Positions 3,123 through 63,990 of a stretch of 64,000 nt of DNA are shown piece after piece. Both the position numbers and the translations under genes were made by a program. The stretch covers positions 1,292,911-1,356,910 of the forward strand of contig RPFO01000288.1 of the NCBI GenBank assembly GCA_009746045.1, given 5' to 3'. A model generated the notes under the pieces. It was not told the DNA's origin. It was given only the letters and a program-made list of their open reading frames with translations, and made no database searches. Within the stretch, counting starts at the first letter, position 1. Each line of letters starts with the position of its first letter. The DNA comes from Mesostigma viride. Taxonomy: Eukaryota; Streptophyta; Mesostigmatophyceae; Mesostigmatales; Mesostigmataceae.

Positions 3123-3629
3123 GAAGCCGGTCGTCAGGGTGGGGCAAATCTCCAGGGAGAGGGGGCTATCGCTGCCGGTGAGCCTGTGTCAGAGGGCGTG
3201 GTTGGAAGCGACGGCGATACTGCGAAAATGACACGCTTTAAGGAGCAAGCGGATGCTTATAAACTGAGGACGTTGGCAAAGCGGGTTGTGGCCGAGGTGA
3301 GAACGGAAACAGCCCCACCTGAGGTACGGAACCAGATGATGACTCTCCATCAAGTCGCTGAGTTGATCGTGAAGAATGCGTGCGCGCCCGATGGAGCCAC
3401 ACAGCCTGAGGAGATCCCGAGCGCCAAGGCCTTGATAAAGTGGATGCAGGAGAACCTGTTCGAGGGCAAAGGGAAGGAGAGGAAGTGTAAACTGTTGACG
3501 GTGACGGAGAAGGACGCCAAGACTCTGATCAAGATGTTGAAGGAACACGATGCCCGCCGGGACAAGTCTCCGAAGACCGCGAAGGGGTCGAAGAAAGCGG
3601 CTGAAGCAGCAGCGGTTGAGGGGAATGAG
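3123..3629 (+). pseudogene. Exon of left-hand unknown gene (Lys-rich)
   Basis: Open frame between the acceptor at 3121-3122 and the donor GAG/GTAAGT at 3630. The peptide includes a helical region (RFKEQADAYKLRTLAKRVV), a segment ALIKWMQENLFEGKGKERK, and ends in a lysine-rich tail. It may be a nucleic-acid-binding or chromatin-type protein by composition, but that is only an inference. The donor of this exon is the edge that is duplicated in the following intron. Confidence 0.5.
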
Positions 3630-4071
3630 GTAAGTCTACCTCTGTTGTGAGGGGGGCTTTGTTCTTGAGGTCCACGTTTCATGTAGGTTGCGACGGCCGG
3701 CGTTTCTTAAGTGTGACACTTACTTCCTTTAGACTAACACTTACTTCCTTTCCTGATTTCGCATCGTTGAGGGAAATGAGCCAAGTGTACCTCTGTTGTG
3801 AGGGGGGCTTTGATCTTGAGGTTTAGGTTTCATCTAGGTTGCGACGGCCGGCGTTTCTCAAGTGTGACAATTACTTTATTCCTTTTGGTTATGCTTTCCT
3901 GATTTTTTCCTATCATTGTTAAGGGGAACGAGGTAAGTGTACCTCTGTTGTGAGGGGGGCTTTGATGTTGAGGTTCAGGTTTCATGTAGGTTGCGACGGC
4001 CGGCGTTTCTCAATCGGCATTTACTTTATTCCTTTTGGTTATGCTTTCCTGATTTTTTCGCATCACTGCAG
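3616..4071 (+). repeat. Intron made of three tandem ~150-bp copies, each with exon edge, donor and GC-rich motif
   Basis: The exon end plus GTAAGT (3616-3635) recurs near 3767 and 3916. Each copy continues with the same CTCTGTTGTGAGGGGGGCTT stretch and then the GC-rich motif (3687-3707, 3838-3858, 3990-4010). Copy 2 has a damaged donor (GAGCCAAGT) and copy 3 has an intact GAG/GTAAGT. The usable acceptor is only after the third copy (actgcag, ending at 4071). Confidence 0.8.
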
Positions 4072-5259
4072 TACGTGCAGGCCGAAAAAGCGACCCACGC
4101 GGCCATCATGTTCTCAATCAGGCTCGACCAGCACCCGCGCCGCGAGAACATGGAAATAGCTAGTTAACGTGGACTGCTGCCGTCGACGAACACCAGAAGG
4201 GACTCTCCGAAGCACTTGCGACCTACAAGGGGAAGGCGCTGAAGGGAAAGGGGAAAGGAAAGGAGGTGGAGGTTGCGGATGCTCCCGTGTCTCTGCTTGA
4301 GAAATGGGAGAAGTCCCCGGTGTCGCAGGATGATGATGACATCCTGGATGTGAACGATGAGATCGCGAAGGGCAAACGGTTGCGGCAGGAGCTTGCCGTT
4401 CAGCCGCGGGACCTCGATGAGATGTCCAAAGCCTTGGTGCATCGAAATCGGGTGTGGACAAGGAACCTGTTCGTTGGGCCTCAGAAGCTCCTCGCACGAG
4501 ACTTGCATCTGTCGAGAGGCGAGCAGAACGCCACCATTTTTGCCAGTTCGGAGTCCGACTACGGCCACGACAAGCTGGTGATTCCTGTGTGGCGGTACTC
4601 GTTCCAGTTTTTGGCTGACCGGTTCCCCAACACTTTTCATGAGTGGATGAAAAACGAGAACACCCAGCGTCAGGTCGCGCAACTTTTCGGGGAGATGGGG
4701 GGTTACGGACAATGAAGGCTGGCTACGCTCGCGCAATGACTGACAAAGAGATTGATATCTACCTGCGAACGAGCTCGGCGAAGGCGATGGCCGAAGCTGC
4801 TTCCACCAAGGTTCTGACAGGACGGGCCGATGTGCTGGACTCACTTAAGCCCGTGGACGTGAGAAAGGCCGCGCTTTTGGACAGTTTGTGCAAGTCCGCC
4901 TGGGAGATGGCTCCACTCGAGAAGAAGCCACCGTTGCCGCCAGCCATTTGCGGCTTTCTCGTGCTGGACGGGAACCACTTTACCACACTCATCAAATCGG
5001 TGAAATTCGAACTGGTCGCCCCAAATATGACGGTGGACCAAAGATCTGTGTGGTACAAGGCAATGCTGAACGGTTTCATGAAGGCGGAAAAGCTAAGGGT
5101 CGTTGCGCGGGGAGGGAAGGAGCAGGAAGTCACGAAGACCGTGGCCGCGGAGAAGCTGGAGGAGTGGGCAATGGATTGGACGAAATTCGGGGGGTGGACG
5201 TGCAGATGCTCAAGGGTGAGACCATCCTGCCGACCTGGTGGCAGATCCGTGAAGAGAAG
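4072..5259 (+). pseudogene. Long exon with three frame changes, unknown gene
   Basis: Begins after actgcag (ending at 4071) and ends at the donor AAG/GTAAGC (5260). Coherent peptide sense moves between frames three times: near 4160 (after ENMEIAS, continuing TWTAAVDEHQKG), at the G6 run 4697-4702 (GEMGGYG, continuing TMKAGYARAMTDKEI), and at the G6 run 5189-5194 (DWTKFGG, continuing VDVQMLKGETILPTWW). The protein is rich in Lys and aromatic residues, and no family is recognised. The right-hand genes of the window show no frame errors, so these are more likely real decay than poor sequence, although two of the three sit in homopolymers. Confidence 0.5.
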
Positions 5260-5515
5260 GTAAGCCAAGTTGCGACCGCCGGCGTTTCTATAAGTGGTTT
5301 TCTCGTGTTATTTTCAGTATGCCATTAGTTTGGTAACGATGCGACCACCGGCGTTTCTATAAGGGGTTTTCATGTTCCACCTTAGTATGCCATATTTTGG
5401 TCAAGATGCGACCGCCGGCGTTTCTGTCAGTCGTATTCTTGTTCTCAGTTGAGTTGTGCTTATTTGGGAGGACTATCGATGTGTCTCTGCGCGTTGTTGC
5501 CCTACGGCGATGCAG
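5260..5515 (+). repeat. Intron with three ~68-bp copies of the GC-rich motif
   Basis: Motif copies at 5269, 5338 and 5405 (GCGACCGCCGGCGTTTCT and a CCACCGG variant) are spaced 69 and 67 bp. The intervening text is also repeated (tataaGgggttttc, tatgccat). The intron starts GTAAGC and ends gcgatgcag. Confidence 0.7.
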
Positions 5516-5703
5516 GTTTCCGAACAAGTCGGCAAGATGATCGAAGTTGTCAGGCAGCTCGGGAACGCCATGAACGCCGAGGACACAGCCCAAGCCAAGG
5601 CAACGTGGGGCTCAGCGCTGGGGGATGTGCACCGGGCCTACCAGGCATATGGACCCGTCAAGAGAGGGAAGGGCGTGTCTATCCCAACTCCTCTGTACGG
5701 CAA
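5516..5703 (+). pseudogene. Left half of the exon split by the 10.8 kb transposon
   Basis: Open after the acceptor gatgcag (5515), reading VSEQVGKMIEVVRQLG... to ...IPTPLYG. The final bases GGC AA join in frame to G ATC TGG at 16511 when the transposon and one CAA copy are removed, giving ...LYGKIWAIVKPFWQK.... So the host exon runs 5516-5703 and continues at 16511. The element therefore inserted into coding sequence. Confidence 0.7.
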
Positions 5704-5735
5704 CCCTACCAGCCATTTAGAATGTACTCCAGCAC
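5704..5735 (+). repeat. Left terminal inverted repeat
   Basis: Starts CCCTACCAGCC and ends GTACTCCAGCAC. It is identical over 32 bp to the reverse complement of 16476-16507. Just inside lies AAGTACATTTT, shared with the inside of the right TIR and with the central palindrome. Confidence 0.92.
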
Positions 5736-5849
5736 AAGTACATTTTGAGTTTTTCCAAGTTTCCTCTTTTTTGCTTGTTTCAAGTTCAGTTCTGCAAAAA
5801 AAGTGTCCCCATGGCCCCTGGATCTCATCTGGAGGTAGTTGAACTAGTA

Positions 5850-5940
5850 TATGCTACAAAATACTACATTGTACTAGTTTGTACTACTTTGTACTACATT
5901 TTTACTATAATGTACTACATTGAACTACATTTGAACAAAT
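5850..5940 (+). repeat. Subterminal GTACTA(CATT) repeats
   Basis: At least six close repeats of TACTACATT / GTACTAGTTT / GAACTACATT lie about 150-230 bp inside the left end. Clustered short repeats near a terminus are usual transposase-binding sites in several DNA transposon superfamilies. Binding here is inferred. Confidence 0.55.
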
Positions 5941-5944
5941 TTTA

Positions 5945-6665
5945 AGGCTGCTATGCAGTTGTCTAGTGTTCCAGACCCTTGAAAAACAGGTTTTGCCGCC
6001 TCTTTCGGCTCCCCGACCCTGCTCGCGCCCAGATTCGCTACACGAAAACTGTCGCAGCCACCGGACTAATGAGGCAATCCTGCCCCCCATTGCGCCTTGC
6101 GATCACATGTAATCAAGCAAGCATGTCATGCATACTGGTGTTGTCATAATTCATCTTGTAGCGATAAGCAAGTATTAAGTGAGACAGCTATATAATCAGG
6201 GACCATAGAAAGCGCCTCACAATCATGACACATGCACATGGCAAAATAGCAACTTCATTGTGGCAAAACTCTTGAAACTCACCAAACATCACCAACCACA
6301 AATTATATTGTTGCCTTTTATTAAGAGAGTTTTGAACAAGGCAAGTTGCAACACCCGGTTTCCAACCATGATGGACTGTGGGCACACATATTCCATGCAT
6401 GGCTATCTTGATGAAAGAGCCCGTGAGCTTTACTCTTAGTTTGCACATGCATAGTCCTAGTTGTCATGCCATTCTTGATGCATGATACATGTATAATCAA
6501 TGCCTGCGCGAAAACATGAGCCACAAAACATATGGTGTAAGACAATGTACAGCATCCTGCAAACATATCGCTCACCTGTGCTCCTTAATGAGCAGCACTT
6601 AACAAGACATCCCACCATGCCTCATAGACCTTGATAAGCATGGCATCGATAGCCAAGCTACTAAT
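5945..6665. other. Non-coding left arm of the transposon
   Basis: AT-rich, with no reading frame of convincing composition and no recognisable RNA. It probably holds the 3' UTR and terminator of the minus-strand gene ending at 6666. Confidence 0.5.
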
Positions 6666-9004
6666 CTAGCGCCGTTGCTTCTTCATGGAATACTCCACTG
6701 CTGGATAAGCGGGCTGCAAGTGCACCACGTTCTGCGCGAGAGATGTGACAGGCACCATCGTGATTGATTCAGAGTCGAAGTACTGCTGGTGACCTGCCGG
6801 TGGGGTTAGCACGAAAGCAGTGCCCTGCCCACTGTTACTGTATGTCGAGCGGCTTGTCACTGGAGGTGCATGCCGGTGGTATTCAACCTCAGGGTCCAAT
6901 GCCGTGCGAAGTGTCACGGGAGCTGCCTGCCTGTGGTATCCGCCTCCTGCAGCAGTGTACACCACCCGCTGATCGTCCACATATGTCACAGCCCTGGGCT
7001 GAGCCATGGCTGCATCATAGTGCAGCACCCTCTGGGGACTCGACCGTGTTGAATAATGATGCCCTTGCTGCTCCAGCCCGTGACTGGAGTCACTGGCTGG
7101 AGTACCAGGGACCACCAACGGAGTACGGTACTCGCGCTCCAGTCGCTCCACCCGCTCCCGCAGCTCCTTGACCTCCTTTCGCATGTCAGGGGTAGCGGGC
7201 GCCTCAACTTTTGGTGGTGACTGCTGCGCAGCAACAACCTCCTGCCCCTTTTTCTTCCTGCTCCCCACCGTTGCTGGTGCTGCAGCTGTGCCTTGAAGTG
7301 TGGCCAGCTTTGCATTTATAGCTGCGTGCTCCTGCTCCACCCTGGCCAGCCTCCCCTCAGCTAAGCCAAGCTTCTTGGCCAGAGCGGGCAGCGACTCGAC
7401 AGCCTGGCTCCCCCGCTTTGGCTTGGTGCGACCGCCCCCGAGGATGCTTTTGATATCGGTTTGAGCCTCGGCCATTGCCTCCCTCAAGCCATCATACTCC
7501 TTCTTGACCTCATCCAGAGACGAGCGCAAGTCGGATAAGTCGGCATCACCAGCAGTCACCATGGGAATGGCAGCATCAGCAACCACAGGTGGAATGGCAT
7601 GCTTAGATGCATTGGTGCAAGTGCGAACATGCTTCTCGCGCTTCACTGGTGCATGCTCCTGCTTGACCCTCCCCTTCTTCTCGGGTGGCGAGCCGTAAGA
7701 CTTGTCTGACCTGTTGTCACCGCCATCCCCGCTGCTGTTGTGCGGTGTCATGTCGTCGTCCTGAGTCCCTTCAGCTGCCCTTGAAGATACGGCAGGGGGT
7801 GCACATAGCAGGGGCACCGAGGGGAGTGAGGCAGGAAGTGGTGTGCTTGGCGGCGGCGCTGGGAGTGTGGCAGGGGGTGTAGACGCTGGCACCTTGTAGC
7901 CGACAGCCTGGATGTTGGGCAAGGAGGTGCATACAGGACAAAACAACCCAAGGACATTTTACCATGTGTTTATTTATTTATTATAAAAAGAGCCCAATCT
8001 ATCCACGGAAAAGGCACTTATATCAAAGAGGAAAGCATTCGTGCAAGACTTACACTCCAGCCTTTCTCTTGCGTGCAGGTAGTTTTTAATGCATTGATGG
8101 CAGAGTTTGGGTCATAGAATATTCCCGCGGCGGCTTCCACAGCTTGGGCCACCAGAGAAGTTTCTCGAATTGCCCCATGGGCGCCCAGATCCACTGCCAG
8201 CAACCGCGGCTTACACCACATTGCCGGAAACTGCTTCCCCGGTGATGTGGACGGCAGCGAGTAAAACCCCTGCGAATCGCTCAAAAGGGGCATTACCAGG
8301 CAGAACCACTGCTCCTCTCTATCATTCTTACCCCCCGTACGGACCAGGCCAGCGATTAGGGCCGAGGAGAATGTCGCCACGTCAAGCTCCATTGCAGAAG
8401 CCATGTCAGCGACAGCTGCCTGGCCATCAAACGTGACCAAGTCTCCGATTGCGAATGTGTCGTTCCCAGTTTCGCAGGCGACGAAGATGTCGGGATATCC
8501 CGGCTTTCCGGTTACCTGCCCCTTGCGCACGTCGAGATGAATCGCCTCGGAGAAGCTGGTATACTCTGTCAGCATAGTGGCATCCAGCAAGTACAGCTGA
8601 TTCTCACCATTCTGTCGCCTCACGCCTGCAGGCGTCCCCCCACCGACGTCAATGACGTTGATGACGGCACCTTTGTTTGCCGTCATCTTCGATGCCACCG
8701 CATTCATAGCCATTCTACGCACCCCTAAGTGGCCACCATACTTTACTAGGCATTTGCTGAACACGGGGGCCGAGCTAATAAGGCCACTCCCCGAGGCTGA
8801 CCTAGCATCCTGCGCCATGCGCTCCAACCCAGCGACAGCCCCCCGGCACGGAACAAAACTCTTTCGAAGTCTGGAGTTGTCGCCCAACACCCCCCCTTCC
8901 ACAGCGCTAGTTTCCTTAGCTTTTTCTTCGATCTTTACTTCCTCCAGGTTCTCTACCGCGGCAGGGCAGCCATTACCGACTTCCTCCGCCATGGCAGACG
9001 ACAT
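6666..9004 (-). CDS. Transposon accessory protein with coiled coils (two exons)
   Basis: Exon 1 runs 9004 to 8054, with donor AGT/GTAAGT at 8053. Exon 2 runs 7907 to the stop at 6666, after acceptor acatccag. The phases join cleanly, giving about 730 aa. The chosen start is MSSAMAEEVG at 9004; an upstream ATG at 9163 would lie inside the palindrome. The N-terminal half is folded-looking and contains VINVIDVGGGTPAG, a glycine-rich turn like a nucleotide or SAM motif I, but no family assignment is safe. The C-terminal half is Pro/Ala-rich with a basic NLS-like patch (PPEKKGRVKQEH) and two heptad stretches (LDEVKKEYDGLREAMAEAQ and VKELRERVERLEREY). It diverges from the transposase-like gene and shares its promoter. 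It is probably a transposition or regulatory partner; the role is unknown. Confidence 0.7.
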
Positions 9005-9080
9005 CGCCGTGATTGCTAACCCCGACTCACGATGAACAGGAACTTTCCCTCTGCCTCCAGGCTGTCTTCTGCGCAGCTTC

Positions 9081-9407: not shown

Positions 9408-9510
9408 AAATGCCGAGGTAGCCATGTCTTCTTGCTTGCAAAATTGTGGCTGTTTGTGCGATTAGTGTCAAGGTCAGGTGTACGTTGAGCTATCCGGACT
9501 AGTGGCCGAC

Positions 9511-12500
9511 ATGGCGGTCGAAACGGAAGGTGTGCTATGGCTTTGCTGGGACATAATCGTGGCTCTCTGCTTCCTGGCTTTCGCTATCATGCTGATGGGA
9601 CACCATGGGAAGCGCAAGTCCGCAGCTGAAATGCTAAGCGGCAGCACCCATGCCGGCAGCCTAGTGACCGACGAGACGGTCGACTGTAAGTGCGGCCACG
9701 AGTGCATGAAGCCCATTAAAACATCACATCTCCAGGCATTGCGGAGCGCCTGGTTTGCGCCCGGGCGGAAGCAAGAGGACAGGAAGGCGGCGATAAAGCA
9801 GCAGCTGCACCAGGGGGGGTACGACGCCATAACGACCATGTCGTCATCTACTCGTCACAAGTTCGTTCATGACGCTGGTTTCCGGTTCGTTCTCGACGGG
9901 GGAGTCAAGGATAAGAACACAGGGTCTGTGACCCCTTTTCACTTTCAGGTTTGCGAGGCGGCATTCAGGCACTGCCTGAAAATTAGCAACCACGTTTGGC
10001 ACTCGTCGGTCCACGAGGTGGCTGATGAGCGCCAAGCGCGAGCCGAGGGACAGCACGTCATAGATGTAAGCGGCCACCATGGCAAGAAGCAGTCTCGCGG
10101 GGGCTGCAAGGAGAGGGGGCTGGAAGCACGGGCGCTTGCGGAGGAGTGGATTCGGCGGTGGTTGGAGCCCGCGGTGCAGAATGACCCGACAAACGGAACT
10201 ACGTTCATTGAGGAGCCATGCAAGCAGACTCTTTTCGCCACTTATGTGAAGGAGAACGAGAAGGAAGCCAACTTTCCCTTCGTGTCTCTCACTCTGTTCC
10301 GGATCATCTTTGAGGAGGTTGTTGCAACCAGTTATGTCCGCGTGGAGAAGTTTCGCACGAAGATCATGGGCGTGTGCAACATTTGCAGCAACATCAACAA
10401 CAACATCAATGCTGCCCGTCACACTGACACTAAACGATGGGAGTATTGGAAGGAGGAACTCGCCAACCACGAAGAGCTTTTTCATGTAGAGAGGAAGGGG
10501 TTTCTTGTCAGGCGCTTTAATGGTAAGAACGGTCACTATCATTCCATGTCCATGGACGCTATCGCTCACATGAGGACTCACATTCCTGCGGCGGCTGAGG
10601 CGCCTAAGGACTTTCTTTCCAAGCGAGACCTGACCGTACCTTACACCCTGATTTGTACGATTGCACACGGGTTGAGGACTTTTTTCTGGGTGGTCGCACC
10701 ATGGGTGATCAACAAGGCTGTGGCTGGTAATTCGGGCAGGATAACTGTCACCATCCTTGTTCGTCACATCATTGAAATCTGCGAGCAACAGTCGTGGAAC
10801 AGTGCCACGGACCCTGAGATAAGGGCTTACGGGCTGCCCAGAATTTTGGTCATGCAGGTGGACGGTGGCGGCGACAACATGAACCGCGAGGTTCTGGGGT
10901 TCGCCGCCGTCCTCATCATGAGAGGACTGTTTGACCGTGTCCGCTTCTGCAGGCTACCCGTTGGTCACACTCATATTGATTGTGATCAACGGTTCGGTTG
11001 GTTCGTCAGGTGGATGAATGGCTTAAAGAACAAGGTGACGGACAGGCCACCTGTGAAACTAATCACATTTGATGATGTGCTGGCGGGCCTTGGCATCGCA
11101 TTTGAGCATTACTACGAGCAGGGCCCGACAAACTCGATGCGCCAACTCAACCCGAAGAAGCCCCAAGCTGCGGTAAGACTTATATTAGTGTGGATGGCTC
11201 TTGATATCATGCTGGATTTCTAGTCTTCTCTATGTGCACACTTCATGTGCAGCCATATAGGTCATCCATGTGTGTTTTAACCATGTTGCATGTGCTACAG
11301 ATATTATGAGCAGTATTTACTAAGTGTGCTGGAGTCGTTGTTGCATGCTTGTTGTTTTTCACATGTTCACGTCTGCATGAACGCATCGTTGATACTAATG
11401 ATTATTCATATTGCATTATTCCTATTGCATGACTGTTCTATTGCTTGCAGATTGTGGACGCCGCACTGGATGTCACAACGTGGCTGAATGGGTGCATCCA
11501 CCGCGACTTTGGCCGGTGGGTGAAATCGATGGACGCATTTCCGAAGAAGCCAGCCGCGGGCGACACCCATGGCGCGGGCGCAGGTGCAGGCGGGGGCGGG
11601 GGCGGGGGAGAAGGCGCGGGTGCGGGCGCGGGCGCCACCCAAGGCGCGGGCGTAGGCGCGGGCGCGGGCGCCACCGCCAACTTGGATGATGAGCCAGCAA
11701 CCGAAGCCGAGAGGGAGAGGCACCGCTCTTCGAAGGTGTTCGATCTCGAAGTGTTTCTAGGGCCGGATATGAACGTGTATGTCCGCTGGCGCCTAGCCGC
11801 ATCAGAAACGTTGGTAAATGCACCGGTGAACAAGTGGCAGCCCACAGGGCCTAACGGCGAGGCTTGTGACGGGGTCACGCCCATTGGGTACACCCCGCAG
11901 GGAGATCCTGTCTATGGGTGCCTCCTCATGGAGCGTGGCAAGGCCCCCAAGGGAAGTCCCGGTCTAGCACCGCTTTTTGAATGGGACGAGGGCGGTGCCA
12001 GGAGACGTACCTGCGCTAGCCTTCACGGCCTCTTTCCCGACATCGTCTCCGCTGAGAAGCAGCAGTTGCTGGACAGATGGTTTGAGCAGGTGCCAAAGTC
12101 CGTGGAGGATGTGCGTGCCAACAACGAGAATCTGTTCGACATCATGGAGCAAAAGCTCAAAGAGCAGCGTGAACTGCAAGCGAACAAGGCGGTACCCTTG
12201 CCGCTGCGATCTGCAGGCGACCAGTCGGTTGCGCGGGCAACACGGGCACTGAGGCTGCCCGTAAACCAAGTCATCTCGCACGTCGCTTGCCCTGCCCGCG
12301 AGATTCAAGCGCAGATCAACCGCGCATGTGCGCCCGCTGCGCGAGGGAGCACATCAACGGCAACGCCCGCTTTGCGCACACTGATTTCTGGCAGGCACAC
12401 CTTCAAGGTGAATGGAAGCCTCATACGACGCGGCGACCTACTCGTTGTTAAGCGGCCAGCCGTCACCTGCGGGCAGGGAATGCCGTGGGCACCACACATG

Positions 12501-14413: not shown

Positions 14414-14416
14414 TAA

Positions 14417-16309: not shown

Positions 16310-16475
16310 TTAATTTAATTTAAAATGACAAAAATGTACCTTTATTGCTAGCAAATGTCACCAAGATGACGTCCGATCGATACCAAACTTTGTACGAGGT
16401 CTATTTTGGTTGCAAACATCATGCATGACAATTTTCAGCATAAAAAGACAAACTTCGGTACGAAGTACATTTTGC

Positions 16476-16507
16476 GTGCTGGAGTACATTCTAAATGGCT
16501 GGTAGGG
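16476..16507 (-). repeat. Right terminal inverted repeat
   Basis: Reverse complement of 5704-5735 without mismatch. Immediately inside is ACGAAGTACATTTTGCG (16460-16475), whose AGTACATTTTGCG part is present four times in the central palindrome. Confidence 0.92.
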
Positions 16508-18171: not shown

Positions 18172-19174
18172 GATGAAGACAACAGGGGGGGAGGTAAGCG
18201 CCAGCGTGCTGGTGAAGGAGACTCGAGGCCTGTCGTTGGAAACGCCGGCGGGCGTATCTGTGATGAGGAGGGGGATCGCCAGCGGGAGGGAGGCTCGCGG
18301 CCTGTTACTGGAAACGCCGGCGGGCGTATCTGTGATGAGGAGGGGGATCGCCAGCAGGAAGGAGACTCGAGGCCTGTCGTTGGAAACGCCGGCGGGCGTA
18401 TCTGTGATGAGGAGGGGGATCGCCAGCGGGAGGGAGGCTCGCGGCCTGTTACTGGAAACGCCGGCGGGCGTATCTGTGATGAGGAGGGGGATCGCCAGCA
18501 GGAAGGAGGCTCGCGGGCTGTTACTGGAAACGCCGGCGGGCGTATCTGTGATGAGGAGGGGGATCGCCAGCAGGAAGGAGGCTCGCGGCCTGTTACTGGT
18601 AACGCCGGCGGGCGTATCTGTGATGAGGATGGGGATCGCCAGCAGGAAGCAGGCTCGCGGCCTGTTACTGGTAGAGCCGGCGGGCGTTCCCGATTTACGG
18701 GAGGCGGTCGTGTCCGACAGATGGGAATGAGGCCTCGTCAGGATTCATGGGGACCGCCGGTTGAGGGGACCCCCGCCCTCGCCTCGGTTTCTTTGGTTCT
18801 GGATGACGATCCCGTACCGTCGTCAGGAAGGACGGTTGTGATGACTTTGCCCCCCCGCTCGACGGGGATGGAGCAATGCCCGGACACGATACTGCTGAAT
18901 GAGGATGACGATCCGGAGCCGTCGGCTGACACGGATTTTGTTGCGAGCACCCCACTGCAGAAGAGGTTTTTGGAGGCTCGTAACGTGGAGGGTCCGCGGA
19001 CAGTCGCAGGTGGAGGGCCGGCGTTTGCCGGATTGATGCGCCCGACTGAGGTTGTCGATGTTGAGGCGCCGCCAGGGACATCGGCCGGATACTATACCGA
19101 ATTGACCGCGGGTTTGGGTGACACCATGCGTCCACGAAGGATGCCCTTCCACGCTCCAACGGTACATTCGGCCG
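18172..19174 (+). pseudogene. Repeat-bearing exon and downstream Pro/Asp-rich segment
   Basis: The frame runs from DEDNRGGG through the 24-residue repeats to MGMRPRQDSWGPP and on to ...HAPTVHSAG, where GTAATT at about 19174 is a possible donor. The exon is rich in Asp, Pro and Gly. No recognised domain. The next exon probably starts at 19315. Confidence 0.45.
18200..18700 (+). repeat. Seven 72-bp tandem repeats encoding a 24-residue unit
   Basis: In the frame continuous with 18721-19203 the unit reads GGSRPVTGNAGGRICDEEGD plus RQQE, about seven times with small changes. Two frames stay open through the array because 72 is a multiple of three. The DNA unit contains AACGCCGGCGGGCGTATCTG, faintly like the intronic GC-rich motif. 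Confidence 0.8.
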
Positions 19175-51890: not shown

Positions 51891-54800
51891 ATGGCGGATT
51901 CCGGTAGACACCTTATGGCCTTGCTTGGAGCAGCTGCTGCGGGTGCGGGCAGGCCACTTACCCCAGGAGTACCCCCTCCTTACTCTCCAACGGCACCTCT
52001 CTTGCCTGTGGCGAGCTTACCACGCCAGTCCGCTGGTTTTCAGAAGCATATGGCATCCGCAGGCCGGCTGGACAGCCTTGAAGTCGAGGACGAATCACAA
52101 CTGCTACACAGCCCGGAGGGTTGCCCGTTATCCGCTAGTGTGCCAATCCAGATATATGACACGCAGGGCAGTGCAGACGCCGTGTGCGATGGTGTGCTGT
52201 TTCCTAGCAAGGCACCCTCCCAGCTGGAAGTGACGCCCATCACGATGTACAACACCGCGTACAGCGAGGCACTGGGCAGCAGCATCGCGGTGAACAAGCG
52301 CTACGTCTGCTACGGGCTTGCTGCCGGCCAGATCCGCGTGTTGGATAGGGATTCCGGGGCTCGAGCCTTGCTCAAGGGCCACTCCAAGGTGAGCCGGCTC
52401 GCCAGGGACAGCTCGCTGCTGCCCGCCGGGATGCAGGTTTTGCGTGCTCGAGAATCGTGGCTCGTTTGTGCCACCGTAGCGAAAAGATGCTCTCTGCCAC
52501 GTTGCAGTGTGGGGCATGCCGGTAGTCGCGCTGCCATGCACGACCCCATGCATGACCCCATACATGACCCCATGCGTGACCCCATTCATGAGCCCATACA
52601 TATGACCCCATGCGTGACCCCATGCACGAACCCATGCATGACCCCATGCATGACCCCATGCATGAACCCATGCATGACTCCATGCGTGACCCCATGCATG
52701 ACCCCATGCATGACCCCATGCATGACCCCATGCATGACCCCATGCATGACCCCATGCGTGACCCCATACATGACCCCATGCGTGACCCCATGCGTGACCC
52801 CATTTGTGACCCCATACATGACCCCATACATGACTCCATACATGACGCCATCCATGACCCCATCCATGACCCCATGCGTGACCCCATGCATGACCCCATA
52901 CATGACCCCATGCGTGACCCCATGCGTGACCCCATTTGTGACCCCATACATGACCACATACATGACCCCATGCGTGACCCCATGCATGACCCCATGCATG
53001 ACCCCATGCATGACCCCATGCATGAACCCATGCATGACCCCATGCGTGACCCCATGCGTGACCCCATGCATGACCCCATACATGACCCCATGCGTGACCC
53101 CATGCATGACCCCATGCGTGACCCCATTTGTGACCCCATACATGACCACATACATGACCCCATACATGACCCCATACATGACCCCCTACATGACCCCATG
53201 GAGTGGCAGGCATGCCTGCTGCTGCAAGCAGCCGCGCTTGGTGCGTGCCACCCAGCTCGGGCGCGGCCGCCGTCCCGTCAGCTACTCATGCATGCCATTC
53301 TCAGCGTGCGCATGCCATTGTGTCTAGTGACAAGTGGCTTGACCCATGACCGCATGGTCATGTGCCGCCAGGTGGCGCCGTCCCCACGTTGGATAGCCTC
53401 CCCTCGTGCTGGCTCAGATGTCATCGTCCCCCTGTTCAGTCGCCCCCTCTAGCACCTGCCTGCTCGTCTCTGGGACATGAGCGCCAACCACATCCCTGAG
53501 AGAAGTGGGGTGAGGGTGGGGTGAGGGTGTGGGTGAGGGTGGGGTGAGGGCGGGGTGAGGGTGGGGTGAGGGTGGGGTGAGGGTGGGGTGAGGGTGGGGT
53601 GAGGGCGTGGGTGAGGGTGGGGCGAGGGTGGGGTGAGGGTGGGGTGAGGGTGGGGTGAGGGTGGGGTGAGGGTGGGGTGAGGGTTGGGTGAGGGTGGGGT
53701 GAGGGGGGGTGAGGGGGGGTGAGGGGGGGTGAGGGGGGGTGAGGGGGGGTGAGGGGGGGGTGAGGGGGGGTGAGGGGGGGTGAGGGGGGGTGAGGGGGGG
53801 TGAGGGGGGGTGAGGGGGGGTGAGGGGGGGGTGAGGGGGGTGAGGGGGGGTGAGGGGGGGTGAGGGGGGGGCGAGGGGGGGCGAGGGGGGGGGTGAGGGC
53901 GGGGTGAGGGCGGGGTGAGGGCGGGGTGAGGGCGGGGTGAGGGCGGGGTGAGGCGGGGTGAGGGCGGGGTGAGGGCGGGGTGAGGGCGGGGTGAGGGCGG
54001 GGTGAGGGTGGGGTGAGGGTGGGGTGAGGGCGGGGTGAGGGTGGGGTGAGGGTGGGGTGAGGTGGGGTGAGGTGGGGTGAGATGGGGTGAGATGGGGTGA
54101 GGGTGGGGTGAGGGTGGGGTGAAGGGTGGGGTGAGGGTGGGGTGAGGGTGGGGTGGGCGCTGGGGTGAGCGGTGGGTGGACATCGCCATGCAGTGCCCTG
54201 CGCCTGCCCTGTGCCTGCCATGCTGCATGTGGCGCATGTGATGCAGTGGGCGTTGCATGTGCGGATGGCGATGGTCCCCCCCCTTTGATTGCACGATGCC
54301 CGCACACACACAGCACGGAGCCGCACAAAAGCGAGCGCGTGGCTGGATAGCGAGCGCACGCGTGCTATTTTCGGCACTCTGCTGCTCATATTTGTGTACA
54401 ATAAATCTCATCGCGAAGTGCTGCTTTTACAGCACCCTTGCTCTGCCTCCCCCGCTGCTGCGCCGTCTTGCCCGCCTGCTGGCACCTCCCTGACCCTGCC
54501 TGCTCGCGCCCCATCCTCAACCCGTGTGCCTCATGTGCCCTTTGGTCCACCCGCGTGCCACACTCACAGGCGGTGTTGGATGCTGCCTTCTTTTCGGAAG
54601 AGGAGGACCTGTTGGCCAGGTGAGGGGGGGAGGGGGGGGGGGGGGCAGACCAGGTGTGTTGTACTAGGAAACAAATTTTGCTGGTCAGGTGTGTGTCAGG
54701 GGGGGGAGATGGCCAGAGGGGCAGACCCGGTGTGCCAAATTGGGGATGACCTTTCTGCCTTTTAAAATTATTATTGTTGTTGATGTTATAATAATAATTT

Positions 54801-57800
54801 TTATTACTATTATGAAATGGTACAGGTGAGATGTGTGTGGGCCTCTGCAGCAGCACGTGCAAGGAGGTGGGTGGCCTGATTAAAGAGGGAAAGGTGGCAC
54901 CACCTCAAGGGGGTAGTTGCGGGGAGACCGCCAGGTGGCGCCCGCCGCAGGCCCTCATCGCGTGCATCGTGCGGTGCCACGTGTCGTGTTTTGGGTGCTT
55001 TTGTCGGTCGGGCTGCATGCCTTTGGCGGTGGGTGCTTTTCGCGGTCGGGTGGCATGCCTTTGGCGGTGGGTGGCCTCTCACCGGCAGTGCGGGCGGTGG
55101 CAAACACATGCATCCAAGCACTTGGTTGGTGCGATGGTTTTTTTGCTACTGGTCAGGACAGGAGTGTGAGGGATTGGGCGGGGGGGGGGGGGGGCGGCAT
55201 ATACGTGGGGGAAGGTACATGGTGAGGGCCTGCCAGTGGGCGGCCGACTCGTGATTCGCCCGTTGCTGTCCCGCAGGTATCATTCCACTGACATGCATGT
55301 TTGATGTCATGCACGTTATGTGCTGGTGCCTGCCCCTTCCAACCCCCGTCCCCTCCCACACACCACCACCCCACAGTGTCGCGGAGGACCTGTCGCTGCT
55401 TGTCTGGCGCATCGCCGTCAACGTGGGCACCCTTGTGCTGGAAGGCGAGCGATTGATGGCGGTGCAGCTGCAGCTGGCGGGGGGGGCCGCGCCGCCGGCA
55501 TCCACCAACCGCGTGTGCTGGCACCCGAGTGACAAGGTGCGTTGCCACCACCTGCGGGTCTGTACTTGTGGCCCTGTGCTGGACAAAGGGGTGTAGGGCC
55601 ACGATCTGATAATTTAGCGCTGGACAAGGGGGTGTAGGGCCACAATCTTCTACATTTATATGGTGCTGGACAAAGGGGTGTAGGGCCACGATCTTCTACA
55701 TTTATATGGTGCTGGACAAGGGGGTGTAGGGCCACGATCTTCTACATTTATATGGTGCTGGACAAGGGGTGTAGGGCCACGATCTTCTACATTTATATGG
55801 TGCTGGACAAGGGGTGTAGGGCCACAATCTTCTACATTTATATGGTGCTGGACAAGGGGTGTAGGGCCACGATCTTCTTCATTTATATGGTGCTGGACAA
55901 GGGGTGTAGGGCCACGATCTTCTTCATTTATATGGTGCTGGACAAGGGGTGTAGGGCCACGATCTTCTACATTTATATCGTGCTGGACAAGAGGTGCAGG
56001 GCCACGATCTTCTACATTTATATGGTGCTGGACAAGGGTGTAGGGCCACGATCTTCTACATTTATATGGTGCTGGACAAGGGGTGCAGGGCCACGATCTT
56101 CTACATTTATATGGTGCTGGACAAGGGGTGTAGGGCCACGATCTTCTACATTTATATGGTGCTGGACAAGGGATGTTGGGCCACGATCTTCTACATTTAT
56201 ATGGTGCTGGACAAGGGGTGTAGGGCCACAATCTTCTACATTTATATGGTGCTGGACAAGGGGTGTAGGGCCACGATCTTCTACATTTATATGGTGCTGG
56301 ACAAGGAGTGTAGGGCCACGATCTTCTACATTTATATGGTGCTGGACAAGGGGTGTAGGGCCACGATCTTCTACATTTATATGGTGCTGGACAAGGGGTG
56401 CAGGGCCACGATCTTCTTCATTTATATGGTGCTGGACAAGGGGTGTAGGGCCACGATCTTCTACATTTATATGGTGCTGGACAAGGGGTGTAGGGCCACG
56501 ATCTTCTACATTTATGTGGTGCTGGACAAGGGGTGTAGGGCCACGATCTTCTACATTTATATGGTGCTGGACAAGGGGTGTAGGGCCACGATCTTCTATA
56601 TTTATATGGTGCTGGACAAGGGTGAAGAGCCACGATCTGCTATTTATATATGAAAGCGACAAGCAGCGCAGGCCGGAAATCTGGAAGAATCCGGACCATT
56701 GTAGTTCGATTCTGCTGTTTTCTCATCCGCGTTTTTCTAGTCGTTCAGGATTATGGAAATGAATGGAGGTGGATATGTGTAGCGGTGGATATGAAAAGTC
56801 ATGGCTGGCTAACGCTCATTGAGACCTAGACGGTCTCGCTAATAACCTCTGCTATTCGGGGTTCAGGGCCACAATGTGCTATTTTTATGTAGTGCTGGAC
56901 AAGGGGTGTAGCGCCACGATCTGCTATATTTATATGGTGCTGAACAAGGGTCAAGGGGGTGAAGGGCCACAAATCTGCTTGTTATATATAGTGCTGGGCA
57001 GCATGGTGTAGGGCCACGATCTGCTTTTTATTTGTGCCCTGCTATAGATACGATTCCTATGTCGGTGACCTTCTATGGACGTGGCATGCTGGACCGGGTG
57101 GAGACGTGGTAGGCCATCAACTCGTGTAGGGACACTAAATGTATCACCCGCCACGGTGCCACCTGTGGCTATTCTCGCTTCCCTGAAGCAATGTCAGCGG
57201 CGAACCATTGACGAGATCGTCAGCACCGTTCTGCCATCGTCACCGCCGCCGCTCCTCGGCACTGCCTTCAACGTCGTAGTCATTCACACCGTGATGATCG
57301 GTGGTGAGGATGCATGATGATGTCATCAACAGTGGGATGATGGTCCACGTCACGCCATCCTCACCCATGCCCCACCCTGGGTCCCCTCGTTCCGTCATGC
57401 CTGTCCACTTTCAAACTGTCCTCCCCCCCAGAATATGCTGGTGTATGGTGGCCCAGCCGGGGCCTGCCTGCTGACCATCGACACCCTTGAAGCCGCCAGG
57501 GTGGATGCCGCCAGGGAGGAAGGCGCTACTGACCCAGCACACAAGCTCAAGCTGGTAGTTGACCCCAGTGCGGCAGCCCCCTGTGGGGTCACCATCCTGC
57601 CAGCCCCCACCGATGCGGCGTCAGCGGCCGTGACGGATGTGTCCGTTTCACCCGATGGCGCACGTGTGCTGGCGGCGATGGCTTGCGGGCAGGTGGGTGG
57701 CATGCAGGCAGGTGGGTAGCATGCAGGCAGGTTGGTGGCGGCGAGCGGTATGGGTGGGTTGCCCGTTGGTATGGTGCCATGCCAGCACACTACGGGCACA

Positions 57801-60800
57801 AGGAGCGGCTCAGGTGCCCTCAGCTGGTTCGTTGCTGCGCAGAGGGTGTGATGGCGCAGTGCAACTCTTGGAACGTTTGCTGGTAGCTACCGGCAGTATA
57901 AAGCAGGTAATGTCGTGTGTAGGTGCTGTCAGGTTATAGGGTACTTTGCAGCTGCAGCTGTTTCTTGCAAGGGAGTGGGTGGCATGGAAGGGGTTGATGA
58001 AGTCTCCGCTAATTATGAGGCATTTCCAAGCTGCAGCCGCTGCAAATTCATGCTCGCGTCATTACTCACCGTCGACCTGGCAGGGGCCGCAGGGGCCGTG
58101 CTGCCATGAGAAACACCGCAGGCGCCTGGCATGGTGCGTTCTCGTGGGGCGTGGCAGCATTATACGTTTCGCGTGTACATCGCCAGGCGAGCCACATGCA
58201 TCGGCTTCTCTGGGTGGTCCCTGGGTGTTTGGCAGCTCCCGTTTGTGCCCTCCCCACGGACTCCCCTTGCTTGCTTCCGCGCCTTAAGCCATTCACTGTC
58301 TGGCCTGGTGGCAGCTCACACCCTCACCTTGGCGTTGCCCCATTGGATCATGGATGCCTGGATCGTGGCCTGCCCCGTGGCCACCACGGTCGCCGCGTCG
58401 CCAGGTGTGCGTCTGGGACCTGCCAGGGTGTTCCCTCACGTCCGTGCTTCATGCCCATGGTGGCGCGCCGGTGCACGCCGCGCGCTTTGTCTCGGTGGCT
58501 GGGCTGGACACCCCCGCCGTCATCACGGGGGTACGTCGGCTCGCCGTGCGATCGTTGCTGGATCGAACCCTTTGGGTGTGATGATCTGCGGATGTCTTTC
58601 CTGCTGGTGTGGTGATGGCAGTGGTGCTGGCAGTGCGTGTGGTGCTGGCAGTGTGGTGATGGCAGCGCGTGTGCTTGGATGGTACCCGACGCTTGCTTTT
58701 GGATGATGGACCTCTTGACTGCCAGCCCATCTGAGCATTGAACATACCTCAGGTGTGACTTGGTTTTTGCGCCCTGACCTGCGTTGTGGAGTTTGGCTGC
58801 CTTTGCTGCCCGCGCATGTGCAGGGCCATCACAACCATGAGCTTAAGCTGTGGGTGGTGCAAGGGGAAGGCACAGCGGCCAGCAGCCAGGATGTGGGCGC
58901 GTCACCCTGGGCGTGCGTGCACCAGGTGTTCCTGGTCTCGAGCGGGGGGCGCCAAGTGGCGGATGATGGCGACGCAGCCGCGGTGCTGCGCCAGCTGGCG
59001 GAGGGCACGCAAGAGGCCTTCTTCAACCATGTGCTGGTGGGTGCAAGTGTTGTAACCACATGCTCTTGCGTGGGTGTTCTTTATTCCTTGTCTTCAATCA
59101 CAAATGTGTGGGTACTTGGGGGGGGCGTTATCTATCAATGAGACAAGAGTTATAGGGTGCATGCATGGGGGTTTTATATAGACTCAACAGTGTTTGGGTT
59201 CGCGGGTGATCTATATGTAGTTGACTGCATGGGGCCGTATTCATTAGTCCTTTGCGTGGGTTGCTTGCGTAGGGAAGGCCTGCATGGTGGGTGGGTTCCC
59301 ATCCACTGCACTGGTGGGGTGTTGCGCAGGGCTGCTGGTGCTAGCCACCGCCACAAACGCCACGAAACGCCACTGCCACGAAGCGCCACCAAACAGGTAC
59401 TGGAAGCAGTGGCCCACGGTACCCGTTGGGGGCACGGGAACAGGACGCGTCGGTGCCGCGCGCCTGTCCTCGCACAACCTGATACAACATTATCATGTGC
59501 AGCCACCACGCTGATGTCGGGGGTTGAGCGTCTGTCTTGCTCGGAGAAGGCCCCCTGTGGGATGAGGGGAATAGGGCCTGAACATGCGTTATGCTGACAC
59601 GAACACTTGACCCACTAGACGCCTTGCGTACCCCACCCACCATGTGTGCTGATGCTGTCTGCTGCCCCTGTTGCGCCCATCCTTCCTTTTCCTGCTTCCG
59701 CCCATCCTTCTGGGACGGCCCCGCGCATGGACCCTTCCCCCCTGCACCCAAACCCTTTGCCCCCCTGCCAGGTGGCGCAAGGGGACGGCTACTCCCTGGT
59801 GGTGCTTGCCAACACGCGCAAGAACGCGGTGTACACACTGAGCGTGGTGGCGGGCGACGGCAGCCACTCCCCCCTTGCCCACTTTGAGTACCTCGCTGAG
59901 TTTGCGGTGGTGCTCCCCATCCTGAGCGGCGCCGCACTGCCCTCGACGCGCCCCGTCGCCATCACGGGGACAGCTGGCGGAAGCGGGCAGCAGGCAGGGG
60001 GGCCGGTGGAGCCCGTCGTTCAGCTGTTCTGTGTGCAGACGACGGCCGTGCAGCAGTACGCGCTGTTCGTCACGCAGGTGGGTCCTGCAATAGGCGCTGT
60101 TCGTCACGCAGGTGGGTGCAGCAATAGGCGCTGTTCGTCACGCAGGTGGGTGCAGCGGTAGGCGCTGTTCGCCACGCAGGTGGTGCAGCAGTGGGCGCTG
60201 TTCGTCACGCAGGTGGGAGCAGCAGTAGGCGCTGTTCGTCACGCAGGTGGGTGTAGCAGTGGGTGCTTTTTGTCACTCGGGTGCGTGCAGCAGTAGGCAC
60301 TGTTCGTCACGCAGGTGGGCGGTGGGGGAGGCGCGCATGTATGTGTTTGTGTGTGTGAGGTGCGACCGGGGGAGATGAGGTCTGTTTGTGACGAGACCAG
60401 GTGGCTGACAGGTGGGTGTAGGATGACACTGCGCGTGCAGCTGCGTGGACATGGTTGCTTGTCCTGCACTTGTGTGTCGTCTCTTCCGCACTTGTCATTG
60501 TGAAGGGCCAGCAGTCCGTTGGCAATGATGACTTCTCTGCTCCCAATTACTCTCAGGAGGGTGTTGGTGACGCAGTGTGCTGCGCCCTTGCCCATGCACC
60601 CTGAACGCCTCGCCCTCGGCCCAGTATGCGCCCAGCCTCTTGCCCACAACGCACCTTGCTCACAAGAACACGTGGACTCTAAACACCACAACTCCCTTGC
60701 GCCTCCCTCATGACTTACAACGCGCAGTGCGTGCCCGAGGATCGCGCGCGGCAGCTGCTGGGTGCTGCCGCCGCCACCCACGAGCAGTCCCTGGAGGCGG

Positions 60801-63800
60801 CCGCCGCCGAAGAGCTGCAGCGGGCTGCTGAGGCAAAAGTTCCCAAGTCGGCCGCCGTGGTGCCCAACGTGAGTGCCAGGTAGTGGTGTATGTCAGCGGT
60901 GATGTGGTTACTTGCTGGCGGTGATGTGATTACTTGGCAGCGGTGAAGGGGTGGTTGCTGGCGGTGATGTGGTTACTTGCTGGCGGTGGTTAGCCAGAAG
61001 TGGTTGGGGGACCTTCTAGGGATTGGGGTGGATCAGCTAGTTAGTTTTTTAAAGTAGATATTGGGATTGGAGTTTTATAATGCTTGTAAGCATGCCTAAT
61101 ACTCGTTGCAAATGGTGGCTTGGTAGCTAATGCTGGCAGTTGCCTCTCCCAGACAATCAGTAACCTCCCAGGCTTGTCCAACCTGTAACTTGCAGGTTGC
61201 TTTCCTGCTTCAAGTGATCTTTGCCTGAGGAGTATTTGCAAGGATTCACGCTCCCCCCAGCTCGTCCACTAAAACGTGCGCGTGCTCACTATACCATGCG
61301 CCCGTCCGCTATATCACATGCGTATATTTGGCCCCTGTTCGCCTACACCATGCACTCGTCGGCTAATCACATGCGTATATATGGCCCCTGTTCGCCTATG
61401 CCATGCACTCGTCGGCTAATCACATGCGTATGTATGGCCCCTGTTCGCCTATGTCATGCGCTCGCCCGCTATATCACATGCGGATATATTAAAAATTATA
61501 ATTACTTACATCAGAGTGAAGGCACCCAATTAAACATAAACAAAGCCAACGCTAACAAGAGATACCATGACAAAATAACTACAGCCGGCATGGGACACTC
61601 CACACTGCGGAATGAAGTAAAACAGCCTAATAACCGTGCTGCGCCGCAAAGTCAGCCCGCGTGCGGCATGTGTATATATGGCCCCTGTTCGCCCCATGCG
61701 CCCTATTTCCCACATGGACACTGCCCACGCCCGCACCGCCCGCGCACACCGCCATTGCCCGCATGCCGCCACCCTGCAGCGGAGCTATGCGATGGCAGCA
61801 ACGCCCGCAGAGATGGCGGCGGTGTTGGCGGTGGATGCCAGGAGTGCGCCCAACGCCCCGCATGCTGCCGACAAGGAAGATGGACCGGCTGCAGCGCCAA
61901 TGACCCCCCCACCTTCCCAGAGACCGCTGCCACCCGAGGCCACCCCAGAGCGGGTGGCATCCCCCGCTCTCACACCTGCCAGCACGCCCGCAGAGAGAAC
62001 ACCCGCGGTGGCAACACCTGTACCATCGGTCACCACGCCGCCGCCGGCTACGCCCGCGGACAACTTGTTTGGAGCCGCGTCACCAAGCCCCGCTGCTGGC
62101 GTGCGCCCACCCTCCCCGGGCTACCCTGCACTGCTAACGCCGCAACAAATCCTGCAGCAGGTGCATGGTGGTGCGGCCGCAAGCACCATGATGGCCCAGG
62201 CGGCCAGCGGCAGCAGCAGCAGCAGCGCAGGTCACGCGGTCAGCAGCGGGGCGCATGGCAACGGGACGTCATCACCCACTGTCGCGACCTCATCCAGCAC
62301 CCAGGCAGCCGCGGACGCGGCGTCCGCAGGGGCCCCTGCGCAGGCGCTTGCCACGGAGCCACCGTCGGTCCCTGGCAAGCGGGCCGGCTTGCTGCACCTG
62401 GGCAAGCTGCCGCCTGGTTTCCCTGCGCCAGCACAAGCGCCCACCACCACGCCCGCAGAGCCCCCAGTGGCAAGTAGTAGTGTGGGTAAGGACAAGGACA
62501 AGGGCAAGGCCGCGCCGCTGCCCGCTGGCAAGGCACGCAACAAGACACCTCCGCCACCCATCCCTTCGCCGGCCACCCCTGCGGTTGCGGATGGGGGCAG
62601 GCTGGACGCCAGCGGAGCCACCGCGCAAGCTCTTGGCCCGGCCACCGCGCCCTCCGCGCCCCCGATGCCGGCGGATGCTGGCGGCGCGGCCACTGCCACC
62701 AAGCCTGGTTCCGCCAAGAAGGGGGCGGCGTTGGACACCGGTTTGCAGCAGGTGGCGCCCGAGGCAGGGGCGGGGGCCGACGGGGGCGCTGTTGCTGCGG
62801 CGGTGACATCAAGGGCAGAACTGGAGTCATTGCTGTCGCGGCCGCTCCCGTTTGGCGGCGCGCCCTCGCACGCCCCCGAGGCGGCCGCACCAGGTGTTGC
62901 AGGGGCCGACGACGCGGGCACTGCCTTGCTGTCGCTGCTGCGAGGTGCCACAGGGGATGCCAGGGTGGGCGGGGGGGCAGGGGCGCAGGAGGCGGCGGCC
63001 GCACCAGGGGTTGTGGATGCGGGCAAGGGGGCGGCGACCGAGGCTGCAGAGAAACAGGCGTCGGAGGGGCATGGCGGCGCGGGCCACGGCGGGGAGGGGG
63101 TCCCGCACAAGGAGCCGCGTAGAGAGGAGGCGCAGGCGCAGGGCAAGGTGGAGGCCAAGGATGCGGTGCGGGAGGCACCAGTGCCGCACCCGCTGCCAGG
63201 GGGTGCCAAGGGGGTCGAGGGGGAAACCCTAGCGCGGGCGGCGGCAGCAGCGGTGCCGTACCAGGAGGCCAAGGGGGCTGCGGCAGCGCCAAGTAGCGAT
63301 GCACACAAGGTCACGCAGACGCTTATGGCGCACATGGCGTCGGTGGAGAAGGAGATGGTGGCCATTCGCAAGGAGCTGATCAGCCAGGTGAGAGGGGGGA
63401 GGGGCGCTAGGATCTATTTATGAGCTACTTAATGGTAGTAGGGTGCTATTTTAGATGGATCGATCCAGCCAGGGGGGGGGGGGCGGCGCGCTAGGTGCTA
63501 TTTAGCCCTAAATATTTGTAGTAAGGTGTCCTACAGAAGGAGTTGTCTAGCCAGCTTTGCGTGGGGGGGGGAGCGGTTGCAGTGTGGAAGCTGGCTGGAT
63601 GCTATTTTTGGGATGCCATGGTGTGCTATCTTGGTGTAGGTATATAGTAACGAGGTGTTAGGCGCTAATAATTTCTAACTAGATGACGTTGGTGCCCTTT
63701 TTAGATGTATCTAGATGCCATGGATGTCCTATTCAGATGTATCTAGATGCCGTTGGTGCGCGTTGGATGCCATCGGCGTGCGACAAGCGCAGGCATTTTC

Positions 63801-63968
63801 TGCACCCAACTGTCCTCCCGTCCGCCACACCATCATGTTTCCCACCCCTCCCAAGTGCAGGCGGCAGCGCAGAAGACGGCCGCCACGTCGGCGTCGGCGC
63901 TGGTATTGGGCGCGCTGGCCAAGGAAGCCAAGAAGCTGGAGCTGGCGATCGGAACGCGCGTGGACAAG
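51891..63968 (+). CDS. EDC4: EDC4 / VARICOSE-like mRNA-decapping scaffold (3' end beyond window)
   Basis: Ten exons seen: 51891-52388, 54570-54619, 55377-55536, 57432-57692, 58405-58530, 58824-59036, 59772-60077, 60728-60868, 61780-63387, 63861-63968. All phases close, giving 1157 codons, and it continues to the right. The N-terminal WD40 part reads ITMYNTAYSEALGSSIAVNKRYVCYGLAAGQIRVLD, LLKGHSKAVLDAAFFSEEEDLLASVAEDLSLLVWRI, NRVCWHPSDK, VCVWDLPGCSLTSVLHAHGG, HHNHELKLWVV and YSLVVLANTRKNAVYTLSVV. These match the EDC4/VCS WD region (VCWHP, F.E..HLLAS). A 500-residue Ala/Pro/Gly linker follows, then the start of the alpha-helical C-part (VTQTLMAHMASVEKEMVAIRKELISQV). Role: a P-body scaffold that promotes DCP2-dependent decapping. 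Confidence 0.88.
52540..53205 (+). repeat. CATGACCCCATG 12-bp minisatellite in EDC4 intron 1
   Basis: About 55 units of 11-12 bp (CATGACCC, CGTGACCC, TTTGTGACC variants), with longer blocks repeated at about 52800 and 52920-53160. Both strands stay open by chance. Confidence 0.95.
53510..54165 (+). repeat. GGGTGAGGGTGG minisatellite in EDC4 intron 1
   Basis: About 60 units of 10-12 bp, each with GGTGAGGG, which is also a consensus donor. G-runs of 3-8 every few bases make it a strong G-quadruplex candidate on the sense strand. Minus-strand PPSPPLTPP frames are by-products. Confidence 0.95.
55590..56640 (+). repeat. About 22 copies of a 45-bp unit in EDC4 intron 3
   Basis: The unit is GCTGGACAAGGGGTGTAGGG, CCACGATCTTCTACATTTAT, ATGGT. 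It is highly uniform, with decayed copies to about 57030. Since 45 is a multiple of three, frames stay open on both strands. Confidence 0.95.
56655..56840 (+). repeat. Dispersed repeat, copy 3 (in EDC4 intron 3)
   Basis: Matches copy 1 at 25205-25400: GCGCAGGCCGGAAATCTGGA, GAATCCGGACCATTGTAG, GTTCAGGAT..GGAAATGAATGG, GGCTGGCTAACG, GACCTAGACGGT. It is inserted between the 45-bp array and its decayed copies. Confidence 0.7.
57688..57740 (+). repeat. Three short copies of EDC4 exon 4 end plus donor
   Basis: GGGCAG/GTGGGTGGCATGCAG is followed by GGCAGGTGGGTAGCATGCAG and GGCAGGTTGGTGGC. Confidence 0.75.
60061..60320 (+). repeat. About eight 31-33-bp copies of EDC4 exon 7 end plus donor
   Basis: The exon end GCGCTGTTCGTCACGCAG with GTGGGT (60077/60078) is repeated with a TGCAGCAATA-type link. 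Most copies keep CAGGTGGGT. Confidence 0.92.
60869..61779 (+). other. EDC4 intron 8 with two small repeat families
   Basis: 60890-60990 has about five copies of GTGATGTGGTTACTTGCTGGCG, directly after the donor. 61310-61480 has four copies of a ~65-bp unit, TCACATGCGTATATATGGCC plus CCTGTTCGCCTA. The intron ends cctgcag at 61779. Confidence 0.7.
63388..63860 (+). other. EDC4 intron 9
   Basis: From GTGAGAGG to gtgcag. G-rich tracts at 63475 and 63565; nothing else recognised. Confidence 0.6.
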
Positions 63969-63990
63969 GTGAGGGCAAGGGGACAAGGTG
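63961..63990 (+). repeat. Small duplication of EDC4 exon 10 edge
   Basis: GGACAAG/GTGAGGGCAAG is followed by GGACAAGGTGGG about 17 bp on. Confidence 0.55.

Follow-up and report, generated by a model that had tools for sequence, protein, structure and literature searches.

The question raised by the stretch of DNA analysed here (contig RPFO01000288.1 of assembly GCA_009746045.1, positions 1,292,911 to 1,356,910; its full 64,000 nucleotides are referred to as the window) is why the introns of several genes carry, on their own side of the splice junction, tandem copies of the exon edge that adjoins them. The window probably belongs to the nuclear genome of the streptophyte alga Mesostigma viride or of a close relative, because a kinase encoded in it is 93% identical to a Mesostigma viride protein. 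A sequence-only reading of the window had offered three explanations for the copies, namely introns that lengthen by replication slippage seeded at exon edges, introns born from duplicated exon DNA, and decoy sites that tune splicing. Of the first, the lengthening is supported: both in the window and in genes elsewhere in the assembly, introns appear to have grown through tandem duplications that cross exon edges. We consider it probable that the arrays are tandem duplications of short segments spanning the exon-intron junction, and that they arose in a genome where tandem arrays abound.

Three genes were built by hand, with frames continuous across 9, 6, and 9 exons, providing 21 introns and 42 exon edges. 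Gene B (33936-40856, plus strand; a model of 9 exons that leaves out the 5′ end) encodes a MAK/LF4-like kinase whose kinase region (33936-37892) shares 93% identity over 282 amino acids with the Mesostigma protein (jgi Mesvir1), all other matches being at most 80% identical among the best 120 of 7988 listed. Gene C (48265-51169, minus strand; a model of 6 exons, the 3′ end not being found) is eIF2B-beta-like, with a Pfam IF-2B match at E=5.5e-29, and gene D (54570-63968, plus strand; 9 exons modelled, both ends open) encodes an EDC4/Ge1-like WD40 protein with WD40 and Ge1_WD40 Pfam matches below cut-off. Four genes had been proposed; these three have recognisable products, and the fourth, an unnamed gene A at about 3.0-5.7 kb, gave no Pfam match in the three open reading frames scanned.

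The last 50 bases of each upstream exon and the first 50 of each downstream exon were aligned with the adjoining intron and judged against 100 dinucleotide shuffles. At 12 of the 42 edges, spread over eight of the 21 introns, no more than two shuffles scored as high. With a score of at least 26, 9/42 cognate edges matched their own intron, compared to 3/576 pairings with introns of other genes, and the same threshold was reached by none of the 42 reverse complements, none of the 36 far edges and none of the 58 segments from exon interiors. In orientation the edge copies are direct, in place they are local, and they are specific to the edge that adjoins the intron; the claim that they lie only on the intron side holds in the window genes. 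The copies do not form a single dispersed sequence family of the introner kind, given the excess of own-intron matches over those in introns of other genes. Coding edges that lack a splice site (the stop of the LF4-like kinase gene, the stop of a TrpE-like gene from elsewhere in the assembly, and the start of the eIF2B-beta-like gene) gave no match above shuffles in any of the three cases.

The arrays listed earlier were recovered in their places by Tandem Repeats Finder (TRF), by stacking of units and by alignment, and the recent ones follow a common plan in which an exon part, the splice site and an intron part are repeated head to tail into the intron. Donor arrays stand on the plus strand at the ends of exons B7 (39293-39640; 47-bp unit of 40 exon and 7 intron bases, 7.4 TRF copies, score 66, 0/100 shuffles), B8 (39959-40280; 48-bp unit of about 30 exon and 18 intron bases, 6.7 copies, score 60, 0/100 shuffles) and D6 (60048-60319; 34-bp unit, 8.0 copies, score 52, 0/100 shuffles). 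To these are added the shorter arrays at the ends of exon B3 (35589-35803, plus; 102-bp unit of 55 exon and 47 intron bases, 2.1 copies) and exon C4 (49442-49548, minus; 43-bp unit, 2.5 copies, 2/100 shuffles), and one in gene A (3615-4059, plus; 2.9 copies), where the 151-bp unit has 15 exon bases followed by most of the intron and the exon boundary is set by reading only. Donor copies had also been claimed at 57688-57740, at the end of exon D3; here a TRF array of 19-bp units (57679-57739, plus; 3.2 copies) does cross the junction, whereas its exon part alone is not significant (17/100 shuffles as good), and those claimed at 63961-63990 are weak, with just 7 matching exon bases. On the acceptor side, the array before exon B4 (36093-36706, plus) repeats a unit of about 73 bp, consisting of a pyrimidine tract, CAG and about 11 exon bases, in 8.3 TRF copies or about nine units when stacked, and its exon part matches at 11/11 positions (1/100 shuffles). 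The unit lengths hold no reading frame (19, 34, 43, 47, 48, 99, 102, and 151 bp, the 99-bp unit belonging to the TrpE-like gene), and the best offsets between original and copied sites range from 19 to 239 bp.

Other copies have an exon part of 11-44 bp that is recognisable and an intron part that matches for only 0-6 bp beyond the junction. A diverged copy in intron B1 reproduces the start of exon B2 and its AG (34490-34529, plus; score 65, 37/40 identical, 0/100 shuffles), and another in intron B2 reproduces the start of exon B3 and its AG (35403-35441, plus; score 48, 33/39 identical, 0/100 shuffles), one copy each besides the exon. Also in intron B2, and absent from the earlier list, are weak donor copies, of which a short one that repeats the end of exon B2 and its GT (34893-34903, plus) is identical at 11/11 positions (0/100 shuffles). 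In gene C, on the minus strand, the start of exon C6 and its AG recur in intron C5 (48429-48450; score 34, 0/100 shuffles), with weaker copies above this one discerned by eye, and intron C4 holds a diverged copy of the beginning of exon C5 (49235-49266; score 32, 0/100 shuffles), the splice AG not being kept in the register found. The coding block said to be copied at 48886 is a 16/16 match of exon C5 bases in intron C5 (48894-48909, minus; 0/100 shuffles), and this copy does not include a splice site. An exon part that outlasts the intron part would be expected of older copies, provided that the exon original is held constant while the intron drifts, the alternative being that a shorter segment was copied.

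Recurrence was assessed in 230 kb of the same assembly, consisting of twenty pieces along contig 1 at 700-kb steps (one of the pieces, L014, is all N), the initial 10 kb of that contig and two pieces of contig 2, together with one neighbouring piece, L024. Tandem arrays with a unit of at least 8 bp occupy 13.7% of 207 kb sampled and were not found in 200 kb of shuffled sequence, and dispersed repeats common to the window and the sampled assembly reach 96% identity over 484 bp. In the sample, 139 coding exons were predicted with a simple gene finder that had been trained on the window genes B, C and D, and 17/227 of the predicted edges matched their flanking sequence at a score of at least 26 (four of the 17 coming from repetitive frames of L002), compared to 5/1281 non-cognate pairs, 3/227 reverse complements and 12/350 windows from exon interiors. 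In eight gene pieces with a conserved appearance, chosen by eye and comprising 21 exons (19 of the 139 predicted and two from L024), 11/40 edges had p of at most 0.02, nine of them with 0/200 shuffles; this set leaves out the first-exon acceptor of L010 and the last-exon donor of L018, and since L024 was taken as a neighbour after L018 had shown copies, the figure without it is 9/36. Genes backed by Pfam matches above cut-off (TrpE, XPG, and PGAP1) contributed 5/20 edges; the other pieces are a leucine-rich repeat gene below the Pfam cut-off, an HtrA-like gene without a match, and ankyrin- and WD-like pieces that were not scanned. The clearest case of the sample, the TrpE-like gene (L018, minus strand), shows the same plan as the window genes, its exon end and GTGGGTG being followed by two further copies in a 99-bp unit with GT in all, and another of its introns holds one older copy in which the donor is lost. 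The proposal that the process is genome-wide is thereby backed at the scale of this sample, and the lengthening of introns at exon edges is not confined to the window.

How such arrays could grow without harm to the protein depends on which site is spliced. In six of the seven donor arrays scored (B7, B8, C4, D3, D6, and that of the TrpE-like gene) one copy or more equals the real donor in score. When copied sites were substituted for the real ones, 28 of 29 decoy choices brought a premature stop and the remaining one added 34 codons inside the kinase domain, with the position of D6 copy 4 one base off in both the stop test and the scoring, and one B3 acceptor also off in the scoring. A working protein would then need, on either side, the site that lies outermost, namely the first donor and the last acceptor. 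The outermost site should win because nearly all decoy choices give a premature stop, and position rather than strength should decide in those arrays where the score of several copied donors is the same as that of the real one. First donor and last acceptor would together make the shortest exon and the longest intron, which is what exon definition predicts and a preference for the shortest intron does not.

We therefore propose a simple course of events, in which a short DNA segment straddling the exon-intron junction, and hence composed of exon, splice site and intron, would be duplicated in tandem, possibly by slippage or break repair. With the copies the intron would become longer, and the protein would stay as it was provided that splicing keeps to the site adjoining the exon, namely the 5′-most donor and the 3′-most acceptor, as recognition across short exons would provide, while copies landing on the coding side would be purged by selection. 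Retained copies may be neutral, and with age their exon part would remain recognisable for longer than their intron part, since the original exon is held constant.

Several observations weigh against this account. Some copies have no recognisable intron part, which decay can explain only in old copies. Every copy in the B3 donor and B3 acceptor arrays scores lower than the real site, so that strength may help there, although the score matrix was itself trained on real sites. The choice of sites is deduced from reading frames and homology. Exon interiors of the sample match their flanks more often (12/350, the matches not being itemised) than non-cognate pairs do (5/1281). Finally, plain neutrality alone does not yield the three- to fivefold excess of array starts at edges that is described below.

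Among the other explanations, it had been suggested that the introns themselves were born by tandem duplication of AGGT-bearing exon pieces, one copy becoming the intron, and exon copies do sit within introns as this would have it. However, the recent units span the junction and already hold intron sequence, from which it follows that the duplications took place in introns that existed before them. The likeness between opposite edges that intron birth would leave (exon end with the 3′ end of the intron, or exon start with its 5′ start) exceeded the non-cognate maximum in none of the 21 introns by either test, old events being of a kind that would not show, and we regard this origin as very improbable. 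Misassembly, which could have made or inflated arrays in an assembly with parts that read N, seems to us more improbable still, since many substitutions and small indels separate the copies, the unit length is particular to each intron, and the pattern recurs gene after gene. The suggestion that the copies are functional decoys, which hold or regulate splicing or cut output through early stops, draws on the many copies that retain GT or AG and on the copied donors that match the real one in score. Nevertheless, nearly every decoy choice brings an early stop as described above, the unit lengths and places vary intron by intron, and in the older copies the splice dinucleotide is kept in about 10/14 (our own reading, with the register chosen by score), which is about what divergence alone would give and hence no sign of selection to keep decoys. 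No evidence for decoys that tune splicing was found in these comparisons, and we consider this explanation improbable.

It can also be asked whether splice junctions are mutational hotspots, in which transcription or splicing raises breakage or slippage at exon edges and seeds the duplications. Array starts were counted per 50-bp window at edges and in intron interiors, and were found in 17/81 edge windows against 51/683 interior ones (P=0.0003), although the interior windows are counted from both intron ends, which makes these P values optimistic. The contrast appears in the window genes alone (9/42 against 35/350, P=0.03) and in the sample alone with L024 included (8/39 against 16/333, P=0.0015; one edge fewer than in the set of 40), and overall for pairs of at least 90% identity over 20 bp (14/81 against 21/683) and of at least 95% (7/81 against 17/683, P=0.009). 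Of the TRF arrays in the window, 7/22 straddle a junction where 1.5 are expected (P=0.0003). On the contrary, the position-wise rate of nearby copies shows no excess at junctions (15/45 against 100/304 interior windows), and in the sample alone the contrast is not significant for pairs of at least 95% identity over 20 bp (2/39 against 6/333, P=0.2) or for 25 bp at 90% (1/39 against 5/333, P=0.49). Slower decay of exon copies would in our own estimate yield up to about twofold, and it was for this pattern that the window had been selected. The density of array starts at edges is about three to five times that of intron interiors, an excess that is likely but not settled, and the earlier phrase that growth is seeded at exon edges stands for the array starts and the straddling arrays and falls short for position-wise coverage and for the most identical pairs of the sample. 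A hotspot of this kind is possible, and we are inclined to doubt it. The most far-reaching form of the idea, in which transcription or splicing makes junctions hotspots of duplication, introns genome-wide grow from the edges, and the spliceosome ranks sites by exon length so that the outermost pair wins over copies of equal strength, we hold only tentatively and think unlikely as a whole.

Long introns are mostly attributed to transposons. Tandem duplication across the junction, a known type of mutation found here at an unexpected scale, points to an alternative route of intron growth that is readable in the sequence, with edge duplications at about one quarter of the edges in two gene sets (12/42 and 11/40), and it poses a testable question of how the correct site is chosen. 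The arrays can be seen as natural experiments, in which rival sites lie a few dozen bases apart, often with equal score, and a wrong pick is nearly always ruinous for the protein; RNA reads alone would thus suffice to test exon definition against intron definition. They are also a trap for annotation, our own gene finder having called copies as exons at 39449-39473 in the window and in two sample pieces (L019, 6638-6659; L018, 8403-8439).

Among known systems, the human interferon-induced gene G1P3/IFI6 reportedly has a minisatellite that provides many splice donors at a single locus. The likeness is that tandem units each bear a donor (39293-39640, 39959-40280, 60048-60319, and others); the difference is that many edges in many genes are involved here, on both the donor and the acceptor side, with decoys mostly giving stops. 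Of the Mesostigma genome reports, one is presumably based on strain CCAC 1140. The word “intron” is absent from the main text of that report (PMC7027972). In Mesostigma viride NIES-296, probably the same or a sister organism, introns average 1141.9 bp and 30.1% of intron space lies in repeats (PMC6947507), a repeat-driven lengthening akin to the one described here, except that repeats in general are credited, exon-edge copies go unmentioned and the string “splic” is absent from the main text of that paper. Intron gain by tandem genomic duplication, as described with a duplicated exon piece that becomes an intron (PMC3443670; Drosophila cases in PMC2891723), resembles the present arrays in that exon DNA is duplicated in tandem and the copy is hidden from the protein by splicing, and differs in that the unit in Mesostigma includes intron sequence, the intron pre-existed, and duplication lengthens it. 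Tandem alternative splice sites (PMC8055015) likewise place competing sites of one kind near each other, at a close spacing of a few nucleotides, unlike the 19-239 bp that separate the present sites together with copied exon, which are known from DNA alone.

Some further observations concern the same genes. The Mesostigma protein P0001 diverges from our reading of gene B at 39293-39332, within the exon end that bears the 47-bp array, which may be either a real strain difference or a problem of the gene model at the array. An 18-bp array lies over the stop codon of the kinase gene (40848-40894), its coding part not being above shuffles. In the eIF2B-beta-like gene, exon 6 runs directly into a 5-bp CCCAC array (47839-48262, minus strand; region 46000-48265), and no 3′ exons were seen by eye in translations of 46000-48262. 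One intron of the EDC4-like gene is mostly occupied by a 45-bp unit in 24 copies (55576-56649) that begins 39 bases past the donor.

Elsewhere in the window, a 585-amino-acid open frame (9466-11220, plus strand) has a DUF7869 match at E=4.9e-13. In the sample, capsid-like frames of a putative integrated virus-like element (L021, about 1000-8400, minus strand) and a helicase-like frame of a putative mobile element (L013, 6546-9129, plus strand) were recognised by eye. The 19-base motif TGCGACSGCCGGCGTTTCT has 13 matches in the window with at most three mismatches, where 0.01 are expected, located at 708-5425 on the plus strand and 18238-18544 on the minus strand; eight of them lie in or near the unnamed gene A and five in a 72-bp array.

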